This document shows positions 492 through 50,363 of a stretch of 52,113 nucleotides of DNA, piece by piece. Both the position numbers and the translations under genes were made by a program. The stretch is taken from IMG/VR virus record IMGVR_UViG_3300034061_005181, positions 1 to 52,113 of that record; one strand, given 5' to 3'. Every line of letters begins with the position of its first letter. Position 1 is the first letter of the stretch. The DNA is from a virus. Under the pieces are notes generated by a model. The model made no database searches and was not told the origin of the DNA. It saw nothing but the letters and a program-made list of their open reading frames with translations.

Positions 492-1139
492 TTAAATATC
501 AATATCTCTCCAATCACCAGTTGCAATCGTCTTTGTTGCCCATTTTCCCATTATGTTTGCATGTTGAAAGTAATTGTCTTCTATTACGGTTTCAAGTAAT
601 GTATTCTCAAACATAAAAGGTCTACCTGCAACTTTTGTCATAAATTCACCACCTTGTCCCATCTTCCTATCGTTATATCGTTTCTCCTTACCGTATCCAG
701 GAAAGGATTCTGGACAATTATTAGTTCCAATCAGTATAGAACCTTTGCCACCTTTTGGTATGAATAATATAGAATCTTGATCATACATTCCACCAAGAGC
801 AACTAAATCATCCCGAAGACGACCTGTATCTTTTGCATCAACAACAAAATAAACATTTTCTCTAACTTCTCTTGCATTTGGATTTCCAAAGTTTTCAATA
901 TATGCACCGTGAACTGCCGTTGCAAGATACCCTTTCATTTGAAGATTTGCATACAGTTGTCTGTTTCTTTTTTGATTATCCGCCTTTGTGTATGGTGTAT
1001 CTTCCGGACCAGCACAACCGGTCATCGATCTAAATGCAGTTATAGTTCCACAGTCATGATCTGCCATATGTTTTGCCAAACGAGAAAGACCACTTTCATT
1101 AAGTTGCTTATCTGGTAATAAATGTTTTAACTTTGCCAT
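492..1139 (-). CDS. Conserved phage protein, possible DUF3293-like fold, 215 aa
   Basis: The protein shows the segments GTITAFR, an RNRQLYANL helix, a Glu-containing strand (ENVYFVVD) and YDQDSILFIPKGG followed by IGTN. This order (ITAFR, then R.R.L, then a strand and helix, then a Gln-containing strand) resembles DUF3293-type hypothetical proteins by eye only. No catalytic site can be assigned. The start has GAGAG upstream, and an ATATTTAT promoter-like motif lies 31 nt before the ATG, so it probably begins its own transcript after dut. Confidence 0.65.
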   Translation of the reverse strand: MAKLKHLLPDKQLNESGLSRLAKHMADHDCGTITAFRSMTGCAGPEDTPYTKADNQKRNRQLYANLQMKGYLATAVHGAYIENFGNPNAREVRENVYFVVDAKDTGRLRDDLVALGGMYDQDSILFIPKGGKGSILIGTNNCPESFPGYGKEKRYNDRKMGQGGEFMTKVAGRPFMFENTLLETVIEDNYFQHANIMGKWATKTIATGDWRDIDI

Positions 1140-1170
1140 AATTTCTCTCTGTTATGAAAATCATTTTACT

Positions 1171-1178
1171 ATAAATAT
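1171..1178 (-). promoter_or_regulatory. ATATTTAT promoter-like motif
   Basis: 31 nt before the ATG at 1139, directly after the dut stop codon. Confidence 0.55.
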
Positions 1179-6227: not shown

Positions 6228-6275
6228 TACGCCATCCCATGTAATTACCTTTGTGTGAAAAATACTATTGTAAAT

Positions 6276-6283
6276 ATAAATAT
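6276..6283 (-). promoter_or_regulatory. ATATTTAT promoter-like motif
   Basis: Ten bases beyond a terminator T-run; 48 nt before the ATG at 6227. Its position supports the short start of the membrane protein. Confidence 0.5.
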
Positions 6284-6292
6284 GGGATAAAC

Positions 6293-6318
6293 AAAAAAGG
6301 GTGATGTTTCCATCACCC
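6293..6318 (-). terminator. Rho-independent terminator
   Basis: Stem GGGTGATG/CATCACCC with a 4-base loop, then T6 on the coding strand. Ends the transcript of the 59-residue basic protein, 4 bases after its stop. Confidence 0.88.
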
Positions 6319-6322
6319 AAGT

Positions 6323-6502: not shown

Positions 6503-6520
6503 AAAACCTCCTTTGATAAC

Positions 6521-7396
6521 CTATGCAATTTCCGGTATCGGTAATTTTGCATCGGTTATATTTTGAATAAAAAACTTACGGACTATTTCTCTCATTCCTG
6601 AAACTTTACTTTGTTTGTTGAAAACAATATCGTATAGTTTTTCAAATGATGAAACGTCCGCAGGACCATATTGTTCTCCCAAAAAGAAATTTATCATTTC
6701 TTCTGGAGTCTGTGTTAAAAACTGTTCACTTCCGGCTATTGTTTTTCCCGATTTAATTACGCTACCACCCTTACCGGAATAATTTTTTATCAGATTGAAA
6801 ATTCCTTTATCATGTCTCATAACATATTTTTGAATTTCAATCGGAACATCTTTATCTGTTTTTTTCAATACTTTGTAATCAAATGCAGCAACAACTGCAC
6901 CCAATAAAAAGTTTCTATATGCCGATTTATATTTAGATTCACCCTTTGAATAATCAGGAGAAGAATAAACAAATTGTGTCCAATTCAAATTGTTAGATAA
7001 CATAAAATCTACTTGAACTGGTTCACCAGTATTTCTACCTACTATTTCATATGGAATGGAAATCTGTGAGAATCCCCGTAGTGGTTGAGTTTCATACCCC
7101 ATAGAACCCAATTTGTTCATCAACCAATTATACACTTCACTTAATTTCAAACCATTAGCGGAAGCAATTTGATCCATAGAGATTCCAATATCTAAATCAC
7201 CAGATAATTGGTCAGCAGGTTTCTTTCCTGCACTTCCTAATATAAAACAATCTGTTCCAAATCCAATCAACCCCAATGGTTTCAAAATATCTGTTTCTAT
7301 TTTCTTAACCGTTGGCATAACTTCACTTTGTTTTATACCAACTGCATCTGCAAATAAATTTCCACCTTCTAATAATATATCTTTTAATTTAATCAT
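6521..7396 (-). CDS. Nucleotidyltransferase-fold protein with a capsid-targeting-like N-terminal tag
   Basis: The polymerase-beta-type nucleotidyltransferase signature is visible: GS at 54-55, then GDLDIG giving D67 and D69, and a third acidic residue, D130, in VQVDFML. This matches the metal-binding triad of the family, which transfers NMPs to nucleic acids, proteins or small molecules; the substrate is unknown. The start is the ATG at 7396; an upstream TTG (7405) is less likely. The first ten residues, MIKLKDILLE, closely match those of the hydrolase at 15727-16371. They resemble T4 capsid-targeting sequences, suggesting a packaged enzyme (inference). About 291 residues. Confidence 0.72.
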   Translation of the reverse strand: MIKLKDILLEGGNLFADAVGIKQSEVMPTVKKIETDILKPLGLIGFGTDCFILGSAGKKPADQLSGDLDIGISMDQIASANGLKLSEVYNWLMNKLGSMGYETQPLRGFSQISIPYEIVGRNTGEPVQVDFMLSNNLNWTQFVYSSPDYSKGESKYKSAYRNFLLGAVVAAFDYKVLKKTDKDVPIEIQKYVMRHDKGIFNLIKNYSGKGGSVIKSGKTIAGSEQFLTQTPEEMINFFLGEQYGPADVSSFEKLYDIVFNKQSKVSGMREIVRKFFIQNITDAKLPIPEIA

Positions 7397-7446
7397 GTTT
7401 TTCAAAAATAATAAGTGTTATAGTTCTTTAACCGTGTTAATAATAA

Positions 7447-7752
7447 TTATTTCTTATTTGTAATTTGTCTACCCAATTCGTCAATTCTTTCGTGTAAATC
7501 TCGGGTTTGACCATCGATGTATGTAAATATATTGTCAATCCTTTGATGAAGATTTAAGTCTTCTTTTTCAAGCGTTGAACGAAGTGAATCTACCCTCGAA
7601 TCAATAATCCTTTTAATGTTTTCAATCTCTTTTACGGTTCTATCAAGTTCTTTGTTTAATATCTTAATTCTGAACATACCCACAACTACAACTGTGATTA
7701 ACACCACAACTGTAACCGCACATATACCCATTAAAAATGATGTAATATCCAT
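7447..7752 (-). CDS. Membrane-anchored coiled-coil protein, 101 aa
   Basis: One N-terminal hydrophobic segment (residues about 5-27, including AVTVVVLITVVVVG) is followed by about 70 residues of charged heptad-like helix (IDSRVDSLRSTLEKED, HQRIDNIF, HERIDEL). This is the architecture of a spanin-like or membrane tether protein. No lipobox is present. AGGAG precedes the ATG. It lies between ribonucleotide reductase and the nucleotidyltransferase. Role unknown; the resemblance to an inner-membrane spanin is only architectural. Confidence 0.6.
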   Translation of the reverse strand: MDITSFLMGICAVTVVVLITVVVVGMFRIKILNKELDRTVKEIENIKRIIDSRVDSLRSTLEKEDLNLHQRIDNIFTYIDGQTRDLHERIDELGRQITNKK

Positions 7753-7798
7753 AACTTTTCTCCTAAATTATGTCAAAGAACTATAACACTATTCTTTT

Positions 7799-9652
7799 TT
7801 ATTTTATCTCGCAAGCACCACCGGCACACGCAAGTTCACCCGATAAGTCTGTATTGTCATCCATTTCCACTATGTTTGACAAATCAACATCCTTCAAAGT
7901 TTCCATCAACTGATTGTATTTTTCTTCTGTGATGTCCTCAAAAGGAGCTTGGGTATAGCTGCCCCCATCATAGTTAAGAACAGAAAGTCCATTGTATGAT
8001 TCTTTGTTTTCCCACATCCAATTACCAACTGCATCCCATTCATGTTCACGGATAGAAACTGTTGCAGAAATGTTATGTGTATTCATACCAGTTCTGTGTC
8101 CAGGTTTGATCCAATTATTATTAAACCACTTTACCCTTTCCAACAACTGCAATGGTGATTCAGTTCTCATAATAGCACCCTCTGGTGCCTTTTGTGGAAC
8201 ACCGATAACTGCGGTATCATGTGGACGGAAAAATTCATCCTCTATCAATTCTGGATGATTGATTGCAAGATATGAATAAATTGCCTCATTCTTACCAACA
8301 CGAACACGGCGTAAATAGAAATCATTGTGCCATGCATGAATACCGGATGAACAACCCAATGTCAATGATGATGTTCCAGCAGGTTTAATTGTTGTTGTTC
8401 TCGCACTACGATTGATACCAATGATACCAGCAACTCTTTCATTCTCCTCACGAGAAACTTTAGCAGCGGCTTTCAAATCCAACTTCTGAACTTTACCAGA
8501 ACCGATACCAGTCATACCAACACCAAGTAGTGCATCCTTTTCTGTTGTTCTTTGCCAAATGGGACGAAGATAATGGAAGTCTGTATATCCCGCCTGGAGT
8601 GTTCCGATAAAAGAAGCAGCACGAACTCTGTCCTCTAAATCTTCTTGACCTTCTACATCAGAAACATTTACTTCACAAAGATTACAGAATTGGAATGGTC
8701 GAAGTGCAATCTCACAACAAGGATTTGTTCCCCAATCTTTATCGTTTGAAAAGTAAATACCAGGTTCACCTGCATTGGATAATTCTATTTTCTTCCAAAG
8801 TGATTTGAAAAATTCTTCGGTTACTTTACTACGGAGAAGAACAGCAGAATTATTAGCTCTGCCTCTTTGTGGATTGAGTTCCCACCAATTTCCAAACTTA
8901 CATGAAATCATATCGTCATCATCAGCAGAGAAAAGAGATATGAGAGCGGCACGGCGAATACCACCTGCAAGAACTGCATCTGCAATATGACAGACAATAT
9001 CGTGAACTTCGATAGATGAAAGTTGATCACCATCTTGTTTCAAATCAAGTATTGCTCTAATCTTCTCAATACAAATACGAAGTGGTTCCGGACCAGGTGC
9101 CTTACCACCACTTGTAATCAGACGAGCACCCTTGTGACGAATATCTGAATAATCAAAACGAATAGATGAACCACCCGTAAAGTATGACTTCATCAATGCC
9201 TTAACTGCATCTGCCCAACCTTCTATTGAATCACTAATCAAAAATCTTCTTTCTTTACTCTTTGGTCTGTGGATTGCAGGTAGTTCTTCAACATGATGTT
9301 TCTGAACAGAATAACCAACACCAGTTCCACCAAGAAGAAGAAACATCACTTCACCAAATGCACGCCAGTCATCAATCGGCAAATAAGCACAGTTGTAAAT
9401 TCTGTTAGGAGAAATCTCTATTGGTTTACCACCAAACTGCAATGAACGCATTGATGGTAAAACTTTTTTACCATACACAAATTTATAGACATTTTCAATC
9501 TCGTCTTTTAATTGCGGGTATTTTCTTTGGTGCATTTCTTTGTTTCGTGTCACCAATTCTTCCCATGTTTCCCTACGATTCTTTTCAGGAATGAAACGAG
9601 CATACTTCATATAAACAGTAATTTCAGACAAAATTCTATTACTAATGTCCAT
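7799..9652 (-). CDS. nrdJ: Class II (adenosylcobalamin-type) ribonucleotide reductase
   Basis: It should reduce ribonucleotides to deoxyribonucleotides for phage DNA synthesis. At 617 residues it resembles the monomeric ribonucleoside-triphosphate reductase type. Visible landmarks are NCAYLP with C88 (first redox Cys), NPCCE at 310-314 (thiyl Cys C312 with N310 and E314), FCNLCEVNVS (second redox Cys, C323 or C326), PAGTSS, and a C-terminal CAGGAC pair (C609/C614) for re-reduction. No R2 partner gene or ATP-cone domain is seen, which supports class II. The usual NPCGE is NPCCE here. GGAG precedes the ATG. The phage thioredoxin is the likely reductant. Confidence 0.92.
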   Translation of the reverse strand: MDISNRILSEITVYMKYARFIPEKNRRETWEELVTRNKEMHQRKYPQLKDEIENVYKFVYGKKVLPSMRSLQFGGKPIEISPNRIYNCAYLPIDDWRAFGEVMFLLLGGTGVGYSVQKHHVEELPAIHRPKSKERRFLISDSIEGWADAVKALMKSYFTGGSSIRFDYSDIRHKGARLITSGGKAPGPEPLRICIEKIRAILDLKQDGDQLSSIEVHDIVCHIADAVLAGGIRRAALISLFSADDDDMISCKFGNWWELNPQRGRANNSAVLLRSKVTEEFFKSLWKKIELSNAGEPGIYFSNDKDWGTNPCCEIALRPFQFCNLCEVNVSDVEGQEDLEDRVRAASFIGTLQAGYTDFHYLRPIWQRTTEKDALLGVGMTGIGSGKVQKLDLKAAAKVSREENERVAGIIGINRSARTTTIKPAGTSSLTLGCSSGIHAWHNDFYLRRVRVGKNEAIYSYLAINHPELIEDEFFRPHDTAVIGVPQKAPEGAIMRTESPLQLLERVKWFNNNWIKPGHRTGMNTHNISATVSIREHEWDAVGNWMWENKESYNGLSVLNYDGGSYTQAPFEDITEEKYNQLMETLKDVDLSNIVEMDDNTDLSGELACAGGACEIK

Positions 9653-9703
9653 TTATTTCTCCATTGATTTTTTTATTGAAAACGTTATTTTTTAGGTCTA
9701 AAC

Positions 9704-9731
9704 TAAAACCATATACGAATAAGTATATGGT
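9704..9731 (-). terminator. Hairpin, probable terminator after the helicase gene
   Basis: Nine-base-pair stem ACCATATAC/GTATATGGT, 6-base loop, followed by TTTTAGTTT. The T-run is imperfect and the stem AT-rich, so an operator is an alternative. Confidence 0.55.
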
Positions 9732-9773
9732 CTTGTATAAAAAAAGTAGGTTTTTTCAAAAATTATTTTTACA

Positions 9774-11126
9774 CTAAAACCCTTCTAATTCTTTGAATTT
9801 TTGTGAAAGAGCTTTCTTAACATTTACTTCACCTTTCATAGAAGTAGAAACACTTTGTCCCATGTCTGATGATGGTTCATATATTTCAATATGACCAGTC
9901 ATTGTGTTTATTTTACTTGGGAATGTCATACCATCTGGACCAAAACGATTTTTGATAATATGCCATCTACCAGTTCCACCAACCTTATCATTCAGTTTTC
10001 TTGAAAGAGACATGATGAAATCTGCAATCATAATTTTATTATACGATTCTGAAACCTTACCACCTTCGATAACATCATCTTCGAGTGCAGATCGATTTGC
10101 CTGAGAAGCAGTCCAAATAGGTATTCCATAAGTTCCACCTATACCACGAAGGTCCTCATAAATATCATTCAACTCCAATCTTTTATCACCGGCTTTTGAT
10201 GGTCTAATCAAATCCGCATAATCAACGATAACCAAATCTGGTGCCTTACCTTGACTGATACATTTCTCTATATGTGATGTTATAGTTGTTATACTAGCAG
10301 TTTTAGTTGGATAATACTTTACAATCAAATCACCCTTGATAGTTTCCATTGCATCACGAATTTTTTCTTGTGCGTGTTCTTCACCAAGATTTTGAAAAGC
10401 AATCTTTGTAAAAAATGCATCGAATCGGCGAGCAACATAAAACTGATTAAGTTCAAGTGTGTAATAGATAACTCTCTTTCCTGCACGAACGGCATTTGCT
10501 GCAACACTAACCAATCCCCAAGACTTACCGCCTCCGGCAGGTGCAATGATAACACCAAGTTCTCCGGCAGCCAATCCACCATTTGTAATGTCATCAACAA
10601 CGTTCCAACCGGTCGATACACAAGTTCTTGCACCTTCTTCATAACGAGCTGCAATATCAACTATGTAATCGTGTCCAATGTCTTTGTCAGTTCCGGCTTT
10701 AAGTGCGTTATCAACTTTCTTTTTTATCAAATCATACTTACCACTCTTTAATAAATCAACGGATTCAATGATTGCAACTTTCATCTTTTGATTTTTACAA
10801 AACTCTAATGCAGTTGATTTAACATACTCACCATCCGTGCTGTCTTTATACTTTGCACTTTCTTTTAGTGAATCTGCAATAGTGCTTTTCAAAACTTTAT
10901 CTTCAACTTGTATCAATTCGGATTTGAATACTTCAGCGGTTGGTGCAGTTCTATACTTTTCATAATAAGACATTATCCTAGCAACAATCCAATTATTTGC
11001 CTGAGACTCAAAATAAGTTGGTTCAATTATATCTGAAACTTGTTGTAGGAATGACCTATCGTTTAGTAGTGATGTGATAACTTTTGTTTGAAATGTATGT
11101 CCGTATTGGGATAAATTATCCTGCAT
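9774..11126 (-). CDS. Replicative DNA helicase, DnaB/gp41 type
   Basis: A RecA-fold hexameric helicase of 450 residues that should unwind DNA ahead of the polymerase. Residues 1-140 resemble a DnaB N-terminal helical domain (FLQQVSDIIEPTYF). The C-terminal motor has Walker A APAGGGKS (195-202), YYTLELNQFYVARR (H1a region), Walker B LVIVDYADL (298-306), and TASQANRSA (H3). It overlaps the end of the 5'-3' exonuclease gene by 11 nt (ATGCAGGATAA), so the two are translationally linked. AGGAAC lies before the ATG. A hairpin downstream probably ends the transcript. Confidence 0.94.
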   Translation of the reverse strand: MQDNLSQYGHTFQTKVITSLLNDRSFLQQVSDIIEPTYFESQANNWIVARIMSYYEKYRTAPTAEVFKSELIQVEDKVLKSTIADSLKESAKYKDSTDGEYVKSTALEFCKNQKMKVAIIESVDLLKSGKYDLIKKKVDNALKAGTDKDIGHDYIVDIAARYEEGARTCVSTGWNVVDDITNGGLAAGELGVIIAPAGGGKSWGLVSVAANAVRAGKRVIYYTLELNQFYVARRFDAFFTKIAFQNLGEEHAQEKIRDAMETIKGDLIVKYYPTKTASITTITSHIEKCISQGKAPDLVIVDYADLIRPSKAGDKRLELNDIYEDLRGIGGTYGIPIWTASQANRSALEDDVIEGGKVSESYNKIMIADFIMSLSRKLNDKVGGTGRWHIIKNRFGPDGMTFPSKINTMTGHIEIYEPSSDMGQSVSTSMKGEVNVKKALSQKFKELEGF

Positions 11127-12162
11127 ACTTGTTCCTAATCGAATTTAATGTTGTAAAATTTTTCTTCAACCACTCGTCCCAATTCAATAACACATTTTGT
11201 AGTTTATCTTCTACAAATAATTTATCCAAATCAATCTTATTCATACCACCAATTTCACCATCAACTATATTACGAATTGTAGATTTCGTTGATGCTGGAA
11301 TATCAACATCTTCGAGTTGCATTATACGATGATTGGTTTCCAATACTTTCAGATTTTGTTTTAGTTCTTGAATTGCCTTCGATTTATTATCATACAATTT
11401 ACAAAATTCTATGAACATTTCCAAATTTATTTTTCTTTTTTCTGATAATATGGGGAAATGTTTGAGAATGGATTTGTCACCTATACCTTTTATGCCAACA
11501 ACATTATCACTCTTATCACCAAGAATTGATTTGTATATGATGTAATTCTCACACCATATACCAGTTTCTTCCAAAAGGTTTTCGGGAGTATACATTTTCT
11601 TTTTAGTTGGCAAGTAAACGCCAACCCTATCCGAGACTAATTGTAAAAAGTCTCTATCATTTGATAGAATAACACATTTTTCTTTGAAATAAGAAGAAAG
11701 GTAGGCAATCACATCATCTGCTTCGATTTTATCAATGGAGAGTATTGTTAGTGGCAGATTTTGTAGGTATGAAAAAACACGAAACAGTTGATATTTGATA
11801 GATGATTGCTCATCATCAATATCCTCAAATCCTACTACACGGTTTAACCGTGACTTGATTGCCCTACCTTCTTTATAGTTTGAATAGATTTCTTTTCTTC
11901 TTTGTGAACCACCTTTACCATCAAAGACCACAACAACCCGCGTGGGATTAACCATACGGATTGTTGCTCCAAGAGACTTTAAGAATCCAGATAGACCACC
12001 AACATGAATACCATCTTCGTTTAATGTTGGGATAGCAGAAAAGGTGCGTATAAATAAATTCATCCCATCAACAATCAAAACCTTACTATCACGATGTAGG
12101 TTTCCTTGTTCAGCTCTTTCTGTTTCTATTTCTTGTAAAAGTCTTTGATATTTTTTGTTCAT
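11116..12162 (-). CDS. 5'-3' exonuclease / T4 RNase H-like FEN nuclease
   Basis: A FEN/PIN-family nuclease (348 residues from the ATG at 12162) that would remove RNA primers and flaps at lagging-strand junctions. Acidic metal sites appear in order: VLIVDGMN (D32), VVVVFDG, KIEADDVIAYL, ILSNDRDFLQLV. The DNA-binding helix-hairpin-helix follows at GDKSDNVVGIKGIGDKS. A longer start at 12219 is unlikely because the TATATTAGTATTG promoter-like motif lies in that stretch; 12177 is an alternative. It sits directly upstream of the helicase. Separate exonuclease and polymerase genes resemble the RM378 arrangement. Confidence 0.92.
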   Translation of the reverse strand: MNKKYQRLLQEIETERAEQGNLHRDSKVLIVDGMNLFIRTFSAIPTLNEDGIHVGGLSGFLKSLGATIRMVNPTRVVVVFDGKGGSQRRKEIYSNYKEGRAIKSRLNRVVGFEDIDDEQSSIKYQLFRVFSYLQNLPLTILSIDKIEADDVIAYLSSYFKEKCVILSNDRDFLQLVSDRVGVYLPTKKKMYTPENLLEETGIWCENYIIYKSILGDKSDNVVGIKGIGDKSILKHFPILSEKRKINLEMFIEFCKLYDNKSKAIQELKQNLKVLETNHRIMQLEDVDIPASTKSTIRNIVDGEIGGMNKIDLDKLFVEDKLQNVLLNWDEWLKKNFTTLNSIRNKYAG

Positions 12163-12189
12163 TGTAACCAATTCCATATATCGTTTTAT

Positions 12190-12202
12190 CAATACTAATA
12201 TA
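12190..12202 (-). promoter_or_regulatory. TATATTAGTATTG motif, second promoter class
   Basis: A 13-base sequence shared exactly with 14766-14778. It lies 27 nt before the ATG at 12162 of the exonuclease-helicase pair. Confidence 0.45.
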
Positions 12203-12227
12203 CGAAAATAATATGACATTGCAAAAT

Positions 12228-12253
12228 AAAAAAAGAGAATCGGATGATTCTCT
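12228..12253 (-). terminator. Rho-independent terminator
   Basis: Stem AGAGAATC/GATTCTCT, 4-base loop, then T7 on the coding strand. Ends the 139-residue protein transcript before the exonuclease gene. Confidence 0.88.
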
Positions 12254-12293
12254 TTGTATAATTCTTAATTGGCTATTATTTAATAATCATTTA

Positions 12294-12713
12294 TTAAATG
12301 TAATCATTTGCAGATATGCCTAATTTTGGAGCCAACTCGCGTATTTGTTGTTCTATCTCTCTTGATTCTTGGGGTCCAGCATATTCTTCATTGTAAACAA
12401 CCAACCTTGCTAATTCCTCCACCATTTCAAAAAATGTATTACCTTTCATTTTTTTTATTTGTTGCTCTAATGATTTTATTTGCATTTGAGCTTCTTTTGT
12501 GTCTTCCATATTTGTGCTGTATTCCTCTTGTTTATGGAAAATCACATAATCTGCAATCAATTCTTTTATATTGATGAATTGACCTGGCATTCCAGGAGGT
12601 TTATTGCCAATAAGTGGATTTACGAAAGGTGCTTCATTCATTTTTTTGTTAAACTTTTCATGTATGGATCTTCCTTCCTGAACTAGATCCTTTAATTTTA
12701 CCGATTTACCCAT
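12294..12713 (-). CDS. Hypothetical protein with KLKDLVQE N-terminal tag, 139 aa
   Basis: The sequence opens MGKSVKLKDLVQEG, much like the tags on the nucleotidyltransferase and hydrolase. A Pro/Gly-rich piece (NPLIGNKPPGMPG) and an amphipathic coiled-coil helix (MQIKSLEQQIKKMKG) follow, ending with a helical C-terminus. No known domain is seen. GGAG precedes the ATG and an ATATTTAT motif is 31 nt upstream. It has its own hairpins on both sides, so it is a monocistronic insert among the replication genes. It could be a packaged protein, but the cut-site residue pattern (VQE) is less canonical. Confidence 0.65.
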   Translation of the reverse strand: MGKSVKLKDLVQEGRSIHEKFNKKMNEAPFVNPLIGNKPPGMPGQFINIKELIADYVIFHKQEEYSTNMEDTKEAQMQIKSLEQQIKKMKGNTFFEMVEELARLVVYNEEYAGPQESREIEQQIRELAPKLGISANDYI

Positions 12714-12744
12714 ATTAAATACTCCAAAAAAATATGTATATGAT

Positions 12745-12752
12745 ATAAATAT
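12745..12752 (-). promoter_or_regulatory. ATATTTAT promoter-like motif fused to a hairpin
   Basis: CCCCATATTTATATC follows the recombinase hairpin; 31 nt before the ATG at 12713. Confidence 0.52.
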
Positions 12753-12775
12753 GGGGTAAAATTATTTTACCCCAT
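12751..12775 (-). terminator. Hairpin after the recombinase gene
   Basis: Eleven-base-pair stem ATGGGGTAAAA/TTTTACCCCAT with a 3-base loop. No clean T-run; the coding strand continues ATTTATATC. Confidence 0.6.
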
Positions 12776-12781
12776 AGTTTT

Positions 12782-13930
12782 CTATACTTCATCTTGTAAT
12801 AATGGTTCATTTGAAAGTGTTACATCGTCAATTCTGGCTTCATCCAATTTCTTGTATTTCATAATTACCTTATCAGCAATTTCATCATATACTATATCGT
12901 ATAATTCAGGATTACTCATAATCTTTTCAACAAATTCTTTGGATTGAAATTTGATAACTTCTCCAGAACGTTTGTCTGTCCATGAATACCAAGCACCAGA
13001 TTGAGATACAAGGTTGTGTTCTTTCATAACAGTAAGCCAACTACTGTAATCATCAATACCACTATCAAAGTAAACCTCGTATTCACACTCTCTTAATGGA
13101 GGACCACAACGATTTTTAACTAACTTTGCCTTAACTCTCGAACCAACTATTTCATCACGACCTTCTCTCTTTGCCTTAATGGCACCGATTGAAGACAGAC
13201 GAAGACGAACAGATGCATGGAAAGGAATACCTTTACCACCCGGTGTTGTCCAAGGATCAGAGAATGCTGGTGCATTGAGTTTCTGACGAAGTTGGTTTGT
13301 AATAATCAAACAAATACGCTCTCTACCGATAAGATTTGTAATCTTTCTCATTGCCTTTGAAATGATAAGTGCCTTTGCCGTAGCATAACCATCTTTATCA
13401 AAATCTGCAGCCATTTCTGTTTTAGTAGATGCACCGGCGATTGAATCAACTACAATAGTTACCAATCTATCTTTATCGGATGAACGAACTTTATCAATGA
13501 TAACATCAACTGTTTCAAAAATATCTTCTACGGTTTCCAATGGAATGTATAACATATCCTTTAAGTTCAGACCGATTGCACTCAGATACTCGGTAGCAAT
13601 AGCATTCTCGGTATCAATGTAAACAGCAAGACCACCTTTCTTTTGTGTGTTGAGGAGGGCATGGGCTGCCAATAGAGATTTACCAGATTGTTCGAGACCT
13701 GTTATTTCAGATACACGACCAACAGGAAAACCACCATACTTACGATTGGAAATGGCCAAGTCCAACATGGTTGAACCAGTTCCTACCCATTCTTTTACTA
13801 TCGTAGGTGCATCACTATCACCTTCAAGAAAGTAAGCGGTCTTAATGTTTTGAGCTTTGAATTGTTTGTTTATAGTTTCGGCAATGACTCCACCGAGTTC
13901 ATCGGATAAATCACTTTTTGATTTTGCCAT
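12782..13930 (-). CDS. RecA/UvsX-family recombinase
   Basis: A strand-exchange ATPase of 382 residues. Walker A is GLEQSGKS (78-85), followed by VYIDTENA with the catalytic-Glu region. Walker B lies in TIVVDSIAGAS. The L2-like segment is ITNQLRQKLNAPAF, and TPGGKGIPFHASVRLRL matches the conserved RecA core end. An acidic C-terminus follows. The role is recombination-dependent replication and repair, with the adjacent ssDNA-binding protein as partner. AAGGGTG precedes the ATG. A hairpin (12751-12775) follows the stop. Confidence 0.95.
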   Translation of the reverse strand: MAKSKSDLSDELGGVIAETINKQFKAQNIKTAYFLEGDSDAPTIVKEWVGTGSTMLDLAISNRKYGGFPVGRVSEITGLEQSGKSLLAAHALLNTQKKGGLAVYIDTENAIATEYLSAIGLNLKDMLYIPLETVEDIFETVDVIIDKVRSSDKDRLVTIVVDSIAGASTKTEMAADFDKDGYATAKALIISKAMRKITNLIGRERICLIITNQLRQKLNAPAFSDPWTTPGGKGIPFHASVRLRLSSIGAIKAKREGRDEIVGSRVKAKLVKNRCGPPLRECEYEVYFDSGIDDYSSWLTVMKEHNLVSQSGAWYSWTDKRSGEVIKFQSKEFVEKIMSNPELYDIVYDEIADKVIMKYKKLDEARIDDVTLSNEPLLQDEV

Positions 13931-13942
13931 AACACACCCTTA

Positions 13943-14698
13943 TTAAAATAGGTCATCAAATGTAACACCAATATCATCAGTAGATGATGTGGGTTTCTCA
14001 CTCTTTTCTTGTTTGTAATTCAAATCAGCTGCAGGTTCTTCTTGTGATGAAGTTCCCATCCAAGTTTGTAATTGAATTTTCAAATCATCATATGATGGTT
14101 CAGGAAACAATTCAGTAATCTGTGGTTGTGTCTTAATTTTTTCAAGAACATCCTGAGATTCTGTAATGGGGGTTTCTTTTGGTTTAACACGAATAGTTGT
14201 TTCAGCATAAGTTTTACCAGCTTCTTCTGGCGATTTAACGGTAACAACAATATCACGACCAGATTTAGGATCAGACAAATCACCATAATCTGGATCAACA
14301 AAGAAAGCAAGTAGTTCTTCATAGACTTGTTTACCAAATCCCCAAAACTTAACACCTTCATTTTCTTGACCACGAATGATAACAGGTGCATACACTCTCA
14401 TTTTTGGTTCAAGTTTTCTACCCATTACCCAATCTTCTTTATCGCCAGTTTGTTTCAACTTCTCAGCAAATTCAACGATTGGATCAGGACGACCAAATGA
14501 TACAGGTGAAAGAATAGAACGCTTACCGATATTGTAATGAAAATACAATTCGATGAAAGGGTTTTCTCTATTGTGAATATAAGGGGCAATACGAATTTGG
14601 GTTTCGCCCGGATCGGGTTTCCAAATGTTTGATGTGCGATTGTTTGTGTTTTTCAAAGAGTTCAAACGGCTCTTGATTGCATCGAGGTTAATACTCAT
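13943..14698 (-). CDS. Single-stranded DNA-binding protein, gp32-like
   Basis: A 251-residue protein with gp32 organisation. The N-terminus is basic (KSRLNSLKNTNNRTSNIW), a cooperativity-type segment. The core includes FWGFGKQVYEEL and FVDPDYGDLSDPKSGRDI, which match the gp32 OB-fold region. The tail is acidic and ends DDIGVTFDDLF, the type that recruits partner proteins. It has no Cys, so the zinc site of T4 gp32 is absent. GGAG precedes the ATG. It is followed closely by the recombinase gene. Both an ATATTTAT motif and the TATATTAGTATTG motif lie upstream. Confidence 0.9.
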   Translation of the reverse strand: MSINLDAIKSRLNSLKNTNNRTSNIWKPDPGETQIRIAPYIHNRENPFIELYFHYNIGKRSILSPVSFGRPDPIVEFAEKLKQTGDKEDWVMGRKLEPKMRVYAPVIIRGQENEGVKFWGFGKQVYEELLAFFVDPDYGDLSDPKSGRDIVVTVKSPEEAGKTYAETTIRVKPKETPITESQDVLEKIKTQPQITELFPEPSYDDLKIQLQTWMGTSSQEEPAADLNYKQEKSEKPTSSTDDIGVTFDDLF

Positions 14699-14765
14699 GC
14701 TGTTTCTCCAAATGTGTAATGAATAATGATTAACTGTTACTAAAAGAATGTTAGTTCTAATAGGA

Positions 14766-14778
14766 CAATACTAATATA
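14766..14778 (-). promoter_or_regulatory. TATATTAGTATTG motif, second promoter class
   Basis: Exact copy of the 13-mer upstream of the exonuclease gene, here 67 nt before the SSB ATG. Both copies precede replication genes, suggesting an earlier expression class. Confidence 0.45.
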
Positions 14779-14817
14779 ATGATTTAATGTTTAATAAGCA
14801 AGCAATTTTTTCTATAA

Positions 14818-14825
14818 ATAAATAT
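14818..14825 (-). promoter_or_regulatory. ATATTTAT promoter-like motif fused to a hairpin
   Basis: CCCATATTTATTTATAG directly follows the hairpin 14824-14847. It is 119 nt before the SSB ATG, farther than usual; a second motif (14766) lies between. Confidence 0.42.
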
Positions 14826-14847
14826 GGGAAACCAAAAGATTTCCCAT
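14824..14847 (-). terminator. Hairpin after DGHHRW copy A
   Basis: Eight-base-pair stem ATGGGAAA/TTTCCCAT, 8-base loop, followed by ATTTATTTATAG. Acts as terminator, or as a mark at the 5' side of the promoter motif. Confidence 0.55.
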
Positions 14848-14875
14848 TTTATGATTTTTAGTTGGCGATGTATTA

Positions 14876-15715
14876 TCACTTCTTGTTGTATTTCATAAGT
14901 TCTTTGAGTCTACGCACAACTGACTCTGGTAATTTTTCAACATTGAATGTATTATCTACCCATTCAGGAGCATCATCAGTCTGTGGCATCACATCACGTT
15001 TTGGAGCACCTGAAACTGGAGGACTTGTCTTTTTAAGAGTTTCAACGTTACCCCAAATATAATCTGCAATGGCCTCCGGTGTATCTCCTTTTTCATATTT
15101 CTTGAATACTTCAATAACAGGTTCGGCTATATTATCAATTACATATTTTTTCAACTCACTCTCGCCAACTTGAAAAAGATTCACACCACCACCAGCTGCA
15201 GTTGGAACTGTTCCAGTTTGTGCTGCAATACCAATTTGAGTTGCTTTGAGCGCTTCAAGTGGTTTTTTAATATCTGTCAAATCTATCGCCTTCATCTTAG
15301 CATCTGGATTTAAACAAAATACTTGTGACCATCTGTGATGTCCGTCAATAACAAATTTACCACCACCACCGGTTACAATTGATCTTCCTGCAGGTGCAAC
15401 TATACCACCCTTTAGACAAGCTTCTGCACTTGCAGCGTCTTTCAATGGATAACTCAAAGATTTGTCCATAACAACCTCATTTTGGGTAGGTTGTAAGTCT
15501 GTACAAACAGGAGTAATTGCCGTTGTTTTTACAGGCATATCACCAGAAAGTGATTTAATAGCATCAAGAAATTTAGGATCCTTTATATTATCACCCAATT
15601 CTTTTACAAAAGATACATAATCCTTTTTTAGAATTGCCTTCAATTCTTCTTGTGCCTCATCTTCATTAAGTTTTGTCTTAACTTCATTTACTAATTTTTT
15701 CAATGAATTTTTCAT
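14876..15715 (-). CDS. DGHHRW (ParB/sulfiredoxin-like) protein, copy A
   Basis: The diagnostic segment KFVIDGHHRW (DGHHRW at 124-129 counting from 15715) is the nucleotide-binding signature of ParB/Srx-type domains, set between a Gly-rich loop and a VFCLNPDAK strand. A second conserved block, VSGAPKRDVMPQ, lies near the C-terminus. Both blocks recur in the gene at 43427-44470, making the two paralogues. The ATG at 15715 follows GGGAG; ATGs at 15730 and 15727 lack a site. It begins MKNSLKKLVNEV, like other tagged proteins here. The enzyme activity is unknown. About 279 residues. Confidence 0.72.
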   Translation of the reverse strand: MKNSLKKLVNEVKTKLNEDEAQEELKAILKKDYVSFVKELGDNIKDPKFLDAIKSLSGDMPVKTTAITPVCTDLQPTQNEVVMDKSLSYPLKDAASAEACLKGGIVAPAGRSIVTGGGGKFVIDGHHRWSQVFCLNPDAKMKAIDLTDIKKPLEALKATQIGIAAQTGTVPTAAGGGVNLFQVGESELKKYVIDNIAEPVIEVFKKYEKGDTPEAIADYIWGNVETLKKTSPPVSGAPKRDVMPQTDDAPEWVDNTFNVEKLPESVVRRLKELMKYNKK

Positions 15716-15726
15716 AATCACTCCCA

Positions 15727-16371
15727 TCATATAGTATTTACAAATTCTTCTTGTATTTTAAGTTCTTCATCTGTTGCCTTTCCGGTTGCACCCCAATCAG
15801 GAAGAACTGACATTATGTGAAATGCCTTAGCACTTCTGACATCCTTCATCCATTTACCAGATGTTGGGTTATCTTTGTTTTTCAATATATTCACATGATT
15901 TAGTCCTGGAAATACATATAAAGGCATACCACTTTCTTTTGCAAGTATAACTGAATGTTTTAATGGAACTATATTATCACTACCACCATGAATAATTGCA
16001 CCATTGCCACTAATTTCTGATCCAGTTAATGATACAGTAGGCCATTGTCTATTCCATGCAGGTGCTACAAGATAAACTGTATCTGGCTTTTTTGCACCCA
16101 TTGATAATGCCTGCAGAAGTATTGCTCCACCCCTTGAATATGCAATCAAAGTTTTTGGAGATTCTTCATTCAAATATAATATTGCCTTTTCAATATCTTC
16201 AGTTGTTATTTTTGTTGAATCAGAAAATGCAGGACAACCTGTATCTTGGTCTGGATTCGTCCATTCTATATTACAAGCATCCACCCTCATATCTTGGGGT
16301 TTCATACCAAAACCATGAAATGCCCCCTTATCTATACCAATTTCTTTTAATAAATCTTTTATTCGTATCAT
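15727..16371 (-). CDS. Alpha/beta hydrolase (serine esterase-like) with capsid-targeting-like tag
   Basis: A 214-residue compact alpha/beta hydrolase. The nucleophile elbow is IAYSRGGA (S79), the acid is in HGGSDNIVP (D132) and the base in GLNHVN (H159), in the expected order. The substrate is unknown; such enzymes cut esters, lipids or thioesters. The first ten residues, MIRIKDLLKE, align without gaps with MIKLKDILLE of the nucleotidyltransferase at 6521-7396. This suggests delivery in the phage head (inference). The stop overlaps the ATG cluster of the downstream DGHHRW gene. No strong ribosome binding site is seen, so translation may couple to the preceding gene. Confidence 0.78.
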   Translation of the reverse strand: MIRIKDLLKEIGIDKGAFHGFGMKPQDMRVDACNIEWTNPDQDTGCPAFSDSTKITTEDIEKAILYLNEESPKTLIAYSRGGAILLQALSMGAKKPDTVYLVAPAWNRQWPTVSLTGSEISGNGAIIHGGSDNIVPLKHSVILAKESGMPLYVFPGLNHVNILKNKDNPTSGKWMKDVRSAKAFHIMSVLPDWGATGKATDEELKIQEEFVNTI

Positions 16372-16375
16372 TTTA

Positions 16376-17339: not shown

Positions 17340-17347
17340 ATAAATAT
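17340..17347 (-). promoter_or_regulatory. ATATTTAT promoter-like motif
   Basis: 25 nt before the ATG at 17314; touches the stop codon of the preceding gene. Confidence 0.5.
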
Positions 17348-42008: not shown

Positions 42009-43313
42009 TTACTTCAAATATAAAAGATTACCGTCTTGTATTTTAAATTTACCAGATGATTTATATGATTCTTGTGTTGAACCACCTTCTTTCTCTACAC
42101 TATCTACTAAATTGATAAGTATGTTTGCAATGGTCCAAACCAAAAGAGCGTTGTGTATGGCATCAACCACGTTTTCTGAAAGTCCGAATCCAGGAAACAT
42201 TATATCTTTTACAATTCCAGTTGCATACTTTGAAGCCATCTTTTTTACTACTACCTCTAAAAGTTCCCCAAATAAAGTTCCAAGTAATTCAAATGCATAT
42301 GTTCCAGGACCACCGAATGTTTTAGTTGTATTTGAAAATGAAGATAATAATTTTGGTCCAGCCCATTTACCTATAATCTGACCAAGTTTTGCGAATGGTA
42401 TAAATGCCCATTGTATCAATTCTACTGCATAGTGAACGACTTTTCTTAATGCTGGATTTTTTATTGCATCATCCAAATGTTCAACCGAGTGAGCTTCTTT
42501 TAACGAATTTCTTTTTTCATTTCTTTTTAATAATTCAGTAACAACATCATAATTAGATAACAAAGAATTTCTTTTTCTAATCAAACCTTCCAATGCAGGT
42601 ATTGTTTCTAAACCCTTTTCTGCTTCTTTTGCGTCAATTTTTGGTTCTTCTTCTATATTTCCTTTGCCTGATAATACATCCTTCTCCCAAAATGGTTTTA
42701 CTATCCATTTTTGATACCAGTCATTTACCCACCAAGCAGAAGATTCCTTTAATTGTAAAATTTCTTTTTTGAAATCATCATCTACTTTTAATTTTCCTTT
42801 TGAAACCAAGTCTTTTACCATGTTTTGAGCATCAGCAACAGAAGCAGTTTTTGTCATATTACACAGTTTTACCAATCCATTTTTTGCAGAGTTAATAACT
42901 TCTTGAACCAATTCTTTAAATTCTGCCCAAATAGCTTTCAATTTACTCCAACCACCAACGATAGCTTCTTTTGCCTTGTTTCCCATCGTTTTGAGACCAT
43001 CCCATATGTCTCCAAAGAATCCTTCTTTTAATCGTATTTCCATTTCATTTGAATTTACAATAAATTGGACATTCTTATCCAGTTCGTTTATTGTATTTTC
43101 TGTGAGTGATTTTGTTTTTGTCTTTGAAAATAAAATTCTCATTGCAGTTTGTTCATCCAATGTAAAAACTTTAGATCCAATCAATGAGTTAATTGCATTC
43201 TCATCCATGAATAATACTTTTTTATTAACACCATTTATTCTTTTTGTAATGTTTTTTTCTGACATTACCTCGTTCATAAGATGTTTTAGAGAATTGTTTT
43301 TGTTATTTTTCAT
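42009..43313 (-). CDS. Probable internal virion protein with hydrophobic domain, 434 aa
   Basis: The N-terminus MKNNKNNSLKHLMNEV resembles the other tagged proteins. Several I/L-x-E sites occur (RLKEG near 95, QLKES near 190), as in proteins cut by a prohead protease. Residues about 285-410 are amphipathic to hydrophobic (VELIQWAFIPFAKLGQII, ELLGTLFGELLEVVVKK, ALLVWTIANILINLV), which suggests membrane interaction. It lies between the DGHHRW copy B and the GAF-like gene, with terminators on both sides. No family is recognised; a head-packaged protein that crosses the host membrane is a hypothesis. Confidence 0.6.
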   Translation of the reverse strand: MKNNKNNSLKHLMNEVMSEKNITKRINGVNKKVLFMDENAINSLIGSKVFTLDEQTAMRILFSKTKTKSLTENTINELDKNVQFIVNSNEMEIRLKEGFFGDIWDGLKTMGNKAKEAIVGGWSKLKAIWAEFKELVQEVINSAKNGLVKLCNMTKTASVADAQNMVKDLVSKGKLKVDDDFKKEILQLKESSAWWVNDWYQKWIVKPFWEKDVLSGKGNIEEEPKIDAKEAEKGLETIPALEGLIRKRNSLLSNYDVVTELLKRNEKRNSLKEAHSVEHLDDAIKNPALRKVVHYAVELIQWAFIPFAKLGQIIGKWAGPKLLSSFSNTTKTFGGPGTYAFELLGTLFGELLEVVVKKMASKYATGIVKDIMFPGFGLSENVVDAIHNALLVWTIANILINLVDSVEKEGGSTQESYKSSGKFKIQDGNLLYLK

Positions 43314-44617: not shown

Positions 44618-46267
44618 TTATATGTCACCGAGAGAATCGATTTGGATAAGACCATAGAACTCTGGACGAACAATTTTCTTAGCATAACGAGTCATCACGC
44701 CTTTTCTTGGTGTGAAGTTCGTTGGATCATATACCAATGGTGTCATTACAAGTGGGATGTAAGGAGCATACACAGCACCAGTTTCGAGGAATTGTGTTCC
44801 ACGGAAACCTACGAGAACTTGATTCTCGAGCATATAAGGATTCTTATAGACTGTGATACGGCCATTCAACTGACCAACTTTTTGAACACCCATTGCGAAT
44901 TTCATACCTTCACCATCAACTGCATAGCCAGGCATTGATTCAAGTATTGTAGCAACTTGTGGAGAACATACGAGGAAGTTTGCACCACCACGAAGTGTTT
45001 TCTGATGAATTGTGTTAGATACTTTTTGAATCTTTGTGCCAAGTGTTTGGAACCAAGTTTGTTGGTTAAACGCAGAAGCTTGTGCCTGAGCAGATGAATA
45101 TTCTGTAAATGCACTTGTAGCAGCATCATATGTGCGACCAATACGAGCAGACCATCTTTCTGTTGTTTGTGCATTCTTAATCAACATATCAAGAATTTCC
45201 AAATCAATTTCTTGTGAAATATATTCAGACAACATTGATGTCAATTCAGCTTCTGCATCGATTGAGTGATATGCATTCAAATCTTGTGCAAATTCAGGTG
45301 TCCATACTGCCTTCAACTTACGCGTTTTAGCAACGATGGATTCTGAACGCAATTCGAGATTGATTTCTGGAATATTCAAGTCTGCACCAAATGTTGTGTT
45401 TGAAGCACCGTCTTCAAAGTCACCACGTGTTGTAGCAGTAGGTTGCTTCTCATAAGCAATACCAACTGTTGCAGGAGCAGCGGAAGCAGAAACTACGAAA
45501 GTAACTGTTGAACCGTTGTTTGCAGTTGTTGTATATTGTGGGAAGTAACCTAAAATTGTTGAACCAGATACTTTGAAAGCACGAACTGCTTCAAGATCGG
45601 GTGTAGATAAAGACGCAGACTGTACAGTGATTGTCATAATGTTACCGCCTGCAAGTGATGCAGAGTAAGCATTTTGGAACTCTGTATCGTGCTGGAACAA
45701 TGATGGTGTTGTGTGTGATACGGATCCAGTTACGAATTTATTGGCTGCAAGTGCAGTATCTTTTGCAAATGTCCCTTCTACCTCATTGATTGAATAACCG
45801 AAACGACCTGCACCATAAAGACCACCTGAAGGATCTGCATCTTTTGCTTCTTTACCAGTTACACCAAATACTGAATCAGTTTGTGTTTCTTTACCAGCAT
45901 TTGCTGTGAAACCAGGTTGTGCTGTTCCGTATTTGAAATCTAGATAGAATACAAGACCGGAAGGCAAATTCATTGGTTGAACAGAAACGAAATCTTTCGC
46001 AGCAATTTCAGAGAAAATACGGCGAACCAATGGAAGTGCAACACCAGCCCATTCTTCTGAACCAGCTGCTGTACCTGTACGACTTGATTCATCTATAAGT
46101 TGTTTTGCTTGATTTTCGAGAAGTATTGCTATCGAGTTCTTCTCATACTCGTTTTTCAAATTATCAAGAAGACCAGTTTTTGCCCATTTATTGACAACTT
46201 GCTTGTTTTCTTTGATAAGTGCCTTGTGGGGATTCCCAGAGGCATTCAATAAAGATTGTATACTCAT
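44618..46267 (-). CDS. Major capsid protein, gp23-like
   Basis: A 549-residue HK97-fold capsid protein of the T4 gp23 group. After a charged N-terminal region, EEWAGVALPLVRRIFSEI and VSVQPMNLPSGLVFYLD match the conserved gp23 core; later come KLKAVWTPEFAQDLNAYHSIDAE-type helix, RGGANFLVCSP and YAPYIPLV near the end. A likely maturation cut is after E60 in LIDE|S, close to the gp23 cut near residue 65. AAGGAAA precedes the ATG. It follows the scaffold gene directly and ends at a strong terminator, consistent with high late expression. Confidence 0.96.
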   Translation of the reverse strand: MSIQSLLNASGNPHKALIKENKQVVNKWAKTGLLDNLKNEYEKNSIAILLENQAKQLIDESSRTGTAAGSEEWAGVALPLVRRIFSEIAAKDFVSVQPMNLPSGLVFYLDFKYGTAQPGFTANAGKETQTDSVFGVTGKEAKDADPSGGLYGAGRFGYSINEVEGTFAKDTALAANKFVTGSVSHTTPSLFQHDTEFQNAYSASLAGGNIMTITVQSASLSTPDLEAVRAFKVSGSTILGYFPQYTTTANNGSTVTFVVSASAAPATVGIAYEKQPTATTRGDFEDGASNTTFGADLNIPEINLELRSESIVAKTRKLKAVWTPEFAQDLNAYHSIDAEAELTSMLSEYISQEIDLEILDMLIKNAQTTERWSARIGRTYDAATSAFTEYSSAQAQASAFNQQTWFQTLGTKIQKVSNTIHQKTLRGGANFLVCSPQVATILESMPGYAVDGEGMKFAMGVQKVGQLNGRITVYKNPYMLENQVLVGFRGTQFLETGAVYAPYIPLVMTPLVYDPTNFTPRKGVMTRYAKKIVRPEFYGLIQIDSLGDI

Positions 46268-47460: not shown

Positions 47461-47589
47461 TTACTTTTTTTCGTTTTTTTCGGTGGATTTTTTTACAGGA
47501 CCATACTGAAACAGTGATTTTATATCACTTTCAGTATACATATAACGTTTATCACGGTCTTTTGTATCTATTTTCTTCTCATCTGCCAT
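47461..47589 (-). CDS. Small hypothetical protein, 42 aa
   Basis: A short ORF that starts 11 bases inside the end of the ADP-ribosyltransferase-like gene (ATGGCAGATGA) after GAGGAAAA. It reads MADEKKIDTKDRDKRYMY and ends KSTEKNEKK, all charged. T4 has small prohead genes at this place, so a prohead core role is plausible by position only. A strong 13-bp inverted repeat lies in its coding sequence (47504-47536). Confidence 0.5.
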   Translation of the reverse strand: MADEKKIDTKDRDKRYMYTESDIKSLFQYGPVKKSTEKNEKK

Positions 47590-49690: not shown

Positions 49691-50362
49691 TTATCTCCCC
49701 TCAAATATACATTCACAGACATTACCAATTTCACAAATAATGTTTGTTATATTATTGTGGATGCGTTGTATTTTAGGATCAACTTTTGAAATAGTAGACA
49801 TACTGATTCCCTCTGTTATCAATCCTTCGTTTATACCCTCACTCATCCCTTCTGGATACATAAATGCACCATGTGTTGATGGATTTGAAACAAAATCCCA
49901 ACCAATCAACTCAAAGTCATCTTGAACCTCAACAGTTCCTTCACTAATTTCTTCAACTGAACCCAATCCTCTTGATGATATTCCAAGACGAATACCTGCA
50001 CCAAGAAGTTGTTTTAATATATTTCCAGATGGTGTTGGTAATATCTCAACAGTTCCAACAACATCATTTCCTTTCCAATCCACACCAAGAACGTTATGAG
50101 AAACGTTACGAAGATTTATTACAGATGAATCTGGATGATCAAGTTCTCCGAGAGCACGGTTTTCTTTTATATTGGTTGCAGCATATTTTTTTACTTCACG
50201 CATTAAAATCTTTTTTGGATAAACTCTACCATTTTGATTTTTTGCCTCAGCTCTTTGTAAAACACCCGAAACTATGACTTTACCATTATTTTTTCTTTCC
50301 GATTCTGCAATCAATTTTGGATTTGCAGCAAAAAGTATAGTATCTACGAGTAGTTGTTTCAT
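49691..50362 (-). CDS. Prohead core protease, gp21-like
   Basis: A serine protease of about 223 residues that should cut head proteins during capsid maturation. KNQNGRVYPKKIL, NRALGELDHPDSS (catalytic H76), LRNVSHNVLGV, ILPTPSGNILKQLL and GISSRGLG (nucleophile S129 or S130) match T4 gp21. Candidate self-cleavage sites with I/L-x-E are LIAE|S (residue 20) and LITE|G near 184. Start is the ATG 50362 with AGGTG six bases before; the GTG at 50371 is less likely. T4 gp21 cuts after Glu in I/L-x-E, so the capsid site LIDE60 and the tag sites here are consistent with one specificity. Confidence 0.93.
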   Translation of the reverse strand: MKQLLVDTILFAANPKLIAESERKNNGKVIVSGVLQRAEAKNQNGRVYPKKILMREVKKYAATNIKENRALGELDHPDSSVINLRNVSHNVLGVDWKGNDVVGTVEILPTPSGNILKQLLGAGIRLGISSRGLGSVEEISEGTVEVQDDFELIGWDFVSNPSTHGAFMYPEGMSEGINEGLITEGISMSTISKVDPKIQRIHNNITNIICEIGNVCECIFEGR

Positions 50363-50363
50363 C

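Follow-up and report, generated by a model that had tools for sequence, protein, structure and literature searches.

The internal head proteins of phage T4 (IPI-III and Alt) and its vertex protein gp24 begin with a peptide of ten residues, which has hydrophobic residues at positions 4 and 7 and (L/I)-x-E at positions 8-10 and goes together with a gp21-type protease (PMC9026906, PMC9958956). The first 10 residues of gp24 are reported to be removed by the prohead protease (PMC9958956). According to the published mutagenesis of IPIII, residues 4 and 7 serve targeting and residues 8 and 10 processing, Asp at position 10 stops processing and not targeting, and the tag suffices to package a foreign protein (PMC9026906). 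The T-even internal proteins are described as diverse, with the targeting sequence as their sole common part (PMC3012670), and the signal has been suggested as a route by which T4-like phages take in various proteins (PMC9026906). Here we analyse the IMG/VR virus record IMGVR_UViG_3300034061_005181 over all its 52,113 bases (hereafter the window), which stems from a distant T4-like myovirus and in which a nucleotidyltransferase and an alpha/beta hydrolase share such a start. We consider it very probable that these starts are a Leu/Ile dialect of the T4-type capsid-targeting sequence, cut after Glu10 and marking an arsenal of injected enzymes.

Among described systems, IPII and IPIII of T4 are small basic proteins with Tyr/Phe in the tag (MKTYQEFIAE), whereas the Leu/Ile tags reported here stand on many enzymes in more than 50 BLASTP clusters; gp24 (MAKINELLRE) fits even the strict pattern used below. 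Phage P1 likewise packs antirestriction proteins, the Dar proteins, into its head, and for DarB a stretch of 30 residues at the N-terminus is enough for packaging, but the signal is longer, head and protease are of another kind, and recurrence on dozens of proteins is not described in the available text (PMC9024508). The ejection proteins of SPN3US-type giant phages have protease-processed N-termini with a proposed targeting role, though several of their propeptides exceed 100 residues and only gp45 has one of 20 (PMC5694885). The virion of the T4-like cyanophage S-CREM2 holds an S-adenosylmethionine (SAM) lyase of the same family as one in the window, along with further enzymes tagged with Glu at residue 10 (E10); its dialect is Phe-rich, the accessible text of the paper is silent on 'capsid target...', and contamination is left open there (PMC10665884). 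A literature search over titles and the beginnings of abstracts, with most subscription papers and preprints outside its reach, returned no genome survey of such tags.

Conservation of the tag on two unrelated enzymes

The gp23-type major capsid protein of the window shares 70% identity with its counterpart in Microcystis phage Mel-JY01 and 54% with the one in Flavobacterium phage immuto, and 47 of the 48 called open reading frames (ORFs, at least 50 amino acids) lie on the minus strand. Megablast of window 6000-17000 found no near-identical DNA among cultured phages. The first-pass annotation had pointed to a common 10-residue start of the nucleotidyltransferase (ATG 7396) and the hydrolase (ATG 16371) with unrelated domains behind it, and both N-termini were confirmed in the sequence; the two tags (Table 1) agree at 6 of 10 residues and differ conservatively at 3 more.

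All 10 fetched relatives of the nucleotidyltransferase begin with MIKLK[DNEK][IL]LxE. The hydrolase N-terminus was present in 47 of 49 loci; 45 read [MV]I[KR][LI]x[DEN][IL]LxE (with V where the start codon is GTG), and the remaining two, at 49% identity, have the shorter form MKLYPLLFE. In 23 distinct 5' ends of the hydrolase gene, which are related and not independent, Leu8 and Glu10 are invariant despite synonymous change, residues 4 and 7 are always Leu or Ile, and seven amino acids occur at residue 5. Good conservation is also seen at residues 2 (Ile), 3 (Lys/Arg) and 6 (mostly Asp). The conserved hydrophobic and Glu positions are the same four (4, 7, 8 and 10) to which targeting and processing roles were assigned in T4. 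The ratio of non-synonymous to synonymous polymorphism (pN/pS) over the 23 ends was 0.18 for the tag codons, 0.20 for residues 11-15 and 0.08 for residues 16-40; the hydrolase tag appears to be under purifying selection.

The catalytic pattern of Pol-beta-like nucleotidyltransferases is GS...DxD...D, and the corresponding G54, S55, D67, D69 and D130 are invariant in the 7 sequences compared. The top 50 hits of a fold search were nearly all Pol-beta-type transferases (best E 7e-3), which is only suggestive because the AlphaFold model is poor (predicted local distance difference test, pLDDT, 50). For the hydrolase (model pLDDT 77), Ser79, Asp132 and His159 are invariant in 10 sequences and the best hits are small alpha/beta hydrolases (3bdi, probability 1.00, E 2.3e-3, template modelling score TM 0.5), while Pfam matches stay below the cut-off. 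Sequence searches of the PDB gave nothing firm, and the activities given to the tagged enzymes here are predictions from sequence.

Non-phage relatives with the same N-terminus, which the first-pass annotation had named as evidence against its reading, did not turn up: in the bacterial collection (genome_contigs) none of 27 pattern matches for the nucleotidyltransferase and none of 190 for the hydrolase was confirmed, using two short patterns for each enzyme. In the phages collection tblastn (E 0.01) found no relatives of the hydrolase. Nucleotidyltransferase homologues occur in 15 Prevotella Lak phage records, and the two that were translated begin MSGMAIKGS, close to the predicted mature end of the window enzyme, and carry no tag. 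Three Lak phages of about 540 kb (L335, L336 and L339) have both the nucleotidyltransferase and the SAM lyase families in common with the window phage. Just upstream of the nucleotidyltransferase, a 29-nt inverted repeat (83%; 7404-7432/7772-7800) surrounds a small ORF, 7447-7752, with a hydrophobic N-terminus.

Recurrence of the tag in other proteins and phages

In T4, used as a control, the pattern M..phi..phi phi.E (phi, hydrophobic), hereafter the T4 pattern, matches 3 of 253 ORFs, namely IPII, IPIII and gp24, all of them gp21 substrates. Alt with its deposited start MELITELFDE fits as well; in the called ORF set its start is one codon off.

The strict pattern, ^M.[KR][LIVF]..[LIVMF][LIVM].E, was written after both window tags had been seen. 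Two of 47 ORFs in the window match it. Across ten related records there are 22 matches among 1399 ORFs, spread over 15 of 726 families, and 16 of the 22 (13 families) are neither nucleotidyltransferase nor hydrolase. The controls gave a mean of 0.3 and a maximum of 3 in 500 shuffles, 0 of 5941 at internal Met starts and 9 of 40377 at other internal positions. A strict tag was found on two of 232 ORFs in Mel-JY01 and on two of 205 in immuto (about 150 of 160 kb covered); one of the immuto pair, MAKFTYFIRE, may be chance. Tag starts noted in Mel-JY01 are MIKLKSLLQE, MIKLMSLVTE and MGILKQLLKE, with MQFKQYILGE on its SAM lyase, and immuto has MIKLIDLLTE. In the motif phi-x-x-phi-phi-x-E, Glu falls most often on residue 10, in 31 ORFs versus 3.7 expected from positions 41-200; this count covers 1414 ORFs pooled from the window and nine relatives, orthologues included. 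As a loose motif it is found in 106 ORFs (60 families), where shuffling gives about 25 and internal Met an expectation of 31, a weaker result than with the strict pattern. Scanning IMG/VR with the back-translated tag returned at least 119 stretches, and the same codons permuted, at equal degeneracy, returned 5 (one permutation). Since shuffles, internal-Met counts and the permuted-codon scan all fall far below the tag counts, chance is excluded. A 10-column matrix trained by expectation-maximisation was dropped for the fixed patterns; it leaned on the initiator Met and swept in 79 families.

The carriers were surveyed in 80 loci from among the matches listed by the IMG/VR scan. Their 89 tagged genes fall into 62 BLASTP clusters (E 1e-3, compared beyond residue 12), 57 of which contain a complete ORF of at least 60 amino acids. 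A spread of the tag over unrelated domains, which the first-pass annotation had proposed to look for, is seen among the listed matches, where unrelated means by BLASTP and distant homology between some clusters is possible. The 89 tags comprise 82 distinct 30-mers for 40 peptides; it is therefore the protein sequence that is kept, and not a DNA repeat. At least two tagged genes occur in seven loci. Of 30 chosen tagged or tag-like proteins 11 had Pfam matches above the cut-off: zeta-toxin/AAA kinases (5), Nudix, RNase_T exonuclease, RimK, cell wall hydrolase, ADP-ribosyltransferase and DUF5872. The other 19 gave a HAD-type match below the cut-off or, for most, no match. In record G004 the protein immediately downstream of the prohead protease begins MKNLKELLNE, so a core-protein gene seems to bear the tag as well.

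Some arrangements were noted on the way. Locus L249 has four successive tagged genes (175-2013) that fall in different BLASTP clusters and end with one for a Nudix hydrolase, resembling a cargo cassette. In L258, L259, L262 and L272 the tagged genes of four clusters have a common extended start, ENMRxFGTKN, followed by differing sequence. In G003 (L178, L180, L183) a second recurrent start, similar to MKxSELxxIIREE, stands on several small proteins and is possibly another dialect.

Protease, putative cleavage motif and virion proteins

The gp21-type protease that the first-pass annotation had named was found in the window (Table 1), and also in 17 of 21 related records, several of the other four being fragments. 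Twenty-four long contigs bearing tags were picked from the 80 loci; the S77 protease was found on 14 of them, Gp23 on 12 and at least one of the two on 15, as raw counts. In the capsid protein, aligned for the window and 46 loci of a separate set of 80, E60, L/I57 and I/V58 are present in 47 of 47 sequences, giving [LI][VI]xE at the putative cleavage site with the third position free. The tags end in this same motif.

The SAM lyase at 492-1139 is a further tag candidate, missed by the first-pass annotation. S-CREM2 gp6 and the window protein belong to one family (PF23780, E 2e-19 and 1e-9; BLASTP E 6e-9). Forms of this enzyme were gathered within our loci by a search on the conserved start and not on Glu, and in 10 of 10 distinct forms hydrophobic-x-Glu stands directly before that start, S[SG]LSR (or KSLNR). 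The segment ahead of it has 10 to 31 residues (MSKLSNILKE, MKTFKEFLEE, MQFKQYILGE, MAKLKHLLPDKQLNE and others). The CP20 enzyme, which the start-motif search missed, reads NFNE/SSLSRL (the slash marks the junction). Two marine SAM lyases come near the T4 signal MKTYQEFIAE, one with MKTFKEFLEE and one with MKTYKEFIQD, the latter read from a Met inside the P-TIM68 gene as deposited. Group II Campylobacter phages carry a SAM lyase homologue, and gp21 is reported to be encoded in them (PMC2853527).

Mass spectrometry of S-CREM2 virions detected 52 proteins, among them a SAM hydrolase, an APH-like kinase and a cytidylyltransferase, and the authors proposed that the injected SAM hydrolase may guard against restriction (PMC10665884). 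We translated the 219 deposited coding sequences (CDS), ran the loose motif over CDS 1-199 and 200-219 and rechecked the E10 hits with the T4 pattern. This pattern fits 5 of the 52 detected proteins (gp6, gp13, gp14, gp136 and gp154) versus 0 of 167 undetected (Fisher p 6.5e-4; p 0.003 when the near miss gp43, RecA, is included). With the loose motif, among non-structural proteins of at least 60 amino acids in CDS 1-199, the counts were 6 of 26 detected versus 6 of 125 undetected (p 0.007). The E10 starts are MKDFDSFLEE on the SAM lyase, MKRFDAFLTE on the kinase and MKNFSSFLTE on the cytidylyltransferase. The Cas9-like gp12 (L347 7704-10313), also detected in virions, has FASFMAE at residues 19-25, possibly a late-starting tag.

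As for expression, 120 of 739 genes in the window together with six close relatives have the promoter-like ATATTTAT in the 80 nt upstream, with a peak at about 40 nt, and 3 of 739 have its reverse complement there. Within the window the motif stands ahead of tail and baseplate genes, of the SAM lyase gene, of the genes starting at 12713 and 43313 and of the gene run of the hydrolase, and it is also found at 37480-37487. Perhaps it is the late promoter of this lineage. A late promoter in T4 orientation, TATAAATA, was rejected in favour of ATATTTAT as working motif, with 11 of its 16 matches on the plus strand versus 47 of 48 ORFs on the minus.

Taken together, most sequence-level tests favour the T4-type capsid-targeting reading of the first-pass annotation for the tag-bearing enzymes of this phage. 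The T4 control, the published residue dissection, the more than 50 carrier clusters, the head genes on the contigs, the motif at the putative capsid cleavage site, purifying selection and the enrichment in S-CREM2 virion proteins detected by mass spectrometry all point the same way. The tag would dock its protein in the scaffold core during prohead assembly through the hydrophobic residues 4 and 7, and the gp21-type protease would cut after (L/I)-x-E at residue 10, recognising phi-phi-x-E as at the capsid site. The released enzyme would remain among the DNA and enter the next host with it, and the nucleotidyltransferase, the hydrolase, the SAM lyase, the Alt-like ADP-ribosyltransferase and the DGHHRW protein may be pre-made weapons or takeover enzymes for the first minute of infection.

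On the other hand, several findings weigh against this reading or are neutral to it. Of 47 capsid proteins 43 have Ala or Ser behind the Glu, and 15 different residues follow the tags. The nucleotidyltransferase has no ATATTTAT in the 80 nt upstream, and only 4 of 17 strict-tagged genes are preceded by it, one of the four inside the preceding gene. No S77 or Gp23 match was found on 9 of the 24 tag-bearing contigs, including contigs of 125 and 207 kb. T4 IPI lies outside the T4 pattern, and the SAM lyase homologue CPT_0131 is not among the 11 named bands of the CP220 virion gel, which displays abundant proteins only. One of five weaker starts listed in the first-pass annotation, 50867 (MSVESFIKKLKESEE), fits poorly and found no support. 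The loose motif also fits the terminase large subunit, a FEN1-like nuclease and UvsX, which are not expected in heads; we judge these matches to be chance or unrelated, and we know of no terminase described as head cargo. The terminase large subunits at G001 82041-83675 and G002 115824-117407 begin with the tag-like MSKNLKDIIKEE.

Three other explanations were weighed. The tags could be core-docking peptides that target proteins into the prohead and are not regularly cut, with Glu as part of the docking helix. The T4 Asp10 variant, targeted and unprocessed, would agree with this (PMC9026906), as would the unrestricted residue after Glu10 in the 89 tags beside the Ala/Ser of most capsid proteins. 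Against it stand the invariant E10 and fixed L8 of the hydrolase, which are the T4 processing positions, and the SAM lyase propeptides, which vary in length and keep phi-x-E at the junction in all 10 forms, and we regard it as unlikely. That the tag is a short amphipathic helix serving some other purpose, for example to bring proteins to the membrane or the replication site of the infected cell, is in our view very unlikely: structure models do show a helix, with low confidence, over residues 4-10 of the nucleotidyltransferase and 4-9 of the hydrolase, and some loose matches are replication or packaging proteins, but Glu10, the agreement with the T4 positions and the link to S-CREM2 virions are left unexplained. 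That A/T-rich start regions favouring translation initiation produce the likeness as a side effect is hardly credible. The tags are rich in A/T, and one of four purine-rich ribosome-site words occurs in the 20 nt upstream of only 24 of the 89, but this nucleotide artefact is rejected by the codon-permuted control (5 stretches in one permutation versus at least 119), and the 40 peptides written in 82 30-mers and the pN/pS of 0.18 also speak against it.

Other candidate cargo and meaning of the tag

Besides the two enzymes and the SAM lyase, the capsid-targeting reading extends to further proteins of the window (Table 1). Four of the weaker starts of the first-pass annotation (12713, 15715, 43313 and 48841) stand in so far as tag-like starts are kept in relatives, at a varying distance from the start codon. 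It should be noted that 15715 and 48841 are ATGs inside longer ORFs, which start at 15730 and 48961. The Alt-like protein of the window has no ADP-ribosyltransferase profile match; its C-terminus aligns with the homologue in G014 (phmmer, 105 bits), which itself matches PF03496 at 4e-10. The GHHRW/Y proteins begin with MKNSLKKLVNE in the window, MSKLSVLLDE in G012, MIKLKDLLRE in L229 and MIKLKQLINE in other phages. Of 33 distinct N-termini 23 have the motif, and the others mostly belong to a second paralogue beside the capsid genes. One cargo can swap tags, as in these and the Alt-like proteins. The window has two DGHHRW proteins (14876-15715 and 43427-44470), and the capsid-side one starts MKQTNKKRRLFEDDE, without a tag. 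A 2295-amino-acid protein at 22082-28969 has, by eye, about twenty YFDL...GFHKFA...SSxFDWDG repeats.

Table 1. Positions in the window of tags, candidate cargo, head genes and promoter-like motifs (a slash marks a predicted cleavage point)
Feature	Position	Strand	Remarks
SAM lyase (PF23780)	492..1139	-	38.7 bits vs cut-off 28; same family as S-CREM2 virion protein gp6
Predicted 15-residue propeptide MAKLKHLLPDKQLNE of SAM lyase	1095..1139	-	MAKLKHLLPDKQLNE/SGLSRL; phi-x-E before conserved start
Promoter-like TATTTATA upstream of SAM lyase	1170..1177	-	
Pol-beta-like nucleotidyltransferase	6521..7396	-	GS...DxD...D invariant in 7 sequences; weak fold hits
Nucleotidyltransferase N-terminal tag MIKLKDILLE	7367..7396	-	ATG 7396, MIKLKDILLE/GGNLF; L8 and E10 in 10/10 relatives fetched
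139-aa candidate head-core or cargo protein	12294..12713	-	
Tag-like start MGKSVKLKDLVQE	12675..12713	-	ATATTTAT upstream
DGHHRW (ParB-like) candidate cargo	14876..15715	-	Directly downstream of hydrolase
Tag-like start MKNSLKKLVNE of DGHHRW protein	15683..15715	-	Relatives: variants, MSKLSVLLDE, or MGILKQLLKE
Alpha/beta hydrolase, candidate triad S79-D132-H159	15727..16371	-	Triad conservation, fold search
Hydrolase N-terminal tag MIRIKDLLKE	16342..16371	-	ATG 16371, MIRIKDLLKE/IGIDK; L8 and E10 in 23/23 distinct 5' ends
Promoter-like ATATTTAT heading gene run 17314-14876 (including hydrolase)	17340..17347	-	
434-aa candidate internal head protein	42009..43313	-	Adjoins capsid genes
Tag-like start MKNNKNNSLKHLMNE	43269..43313	-	ATATTTAT upstream
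gp23-type major capsid protein	44618..46267	-	Putative cleavage QLIDE/SS after residue 60
Alt-like ADP-ribosyltransferase (putative), start MTFASLEKLIREE	47579..48841	-	Homologues G014 MIRLKNILLE, L212 MIKLKNILLE
gp21-type prohead protease (peptidase S77)	49691..50371	-	PF03420 E 1.4e-29; PHROG head maturation protease E 2e-53

This T4-like phage and its relatives probably carry ready-made enzymes into the infected cell. Beyond them, we think it more likely than not that T4-like phages share an N-terminal packing code with lineage dialects (MIKLKDLLxE, MKxFxxFLxE, MKTYxEFIxE and possibly MKxSELxxIIREE of G003) that is open to any gene. Lists of injected proteins normally need purified virions; if the code holds, sequence alone would tell which enzymes uncultivated phages inject, and a recognisable tag would turn the task into a sequence search yielding candidates for fast counter-defence. 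The tag would also account for the S-CREM2 virion enzymes that the authors could not tell from contamination, and new tags would be on offer for loading chosen proteins into phage heads. The cargo would then include SAM lyases, ADP-ribosyltransferases, nucleotidyltransferases, zeta-toxin-like kinases, Nudix hydrolases and nucleases, many of them likely acting against host defence in the first minute of infection.

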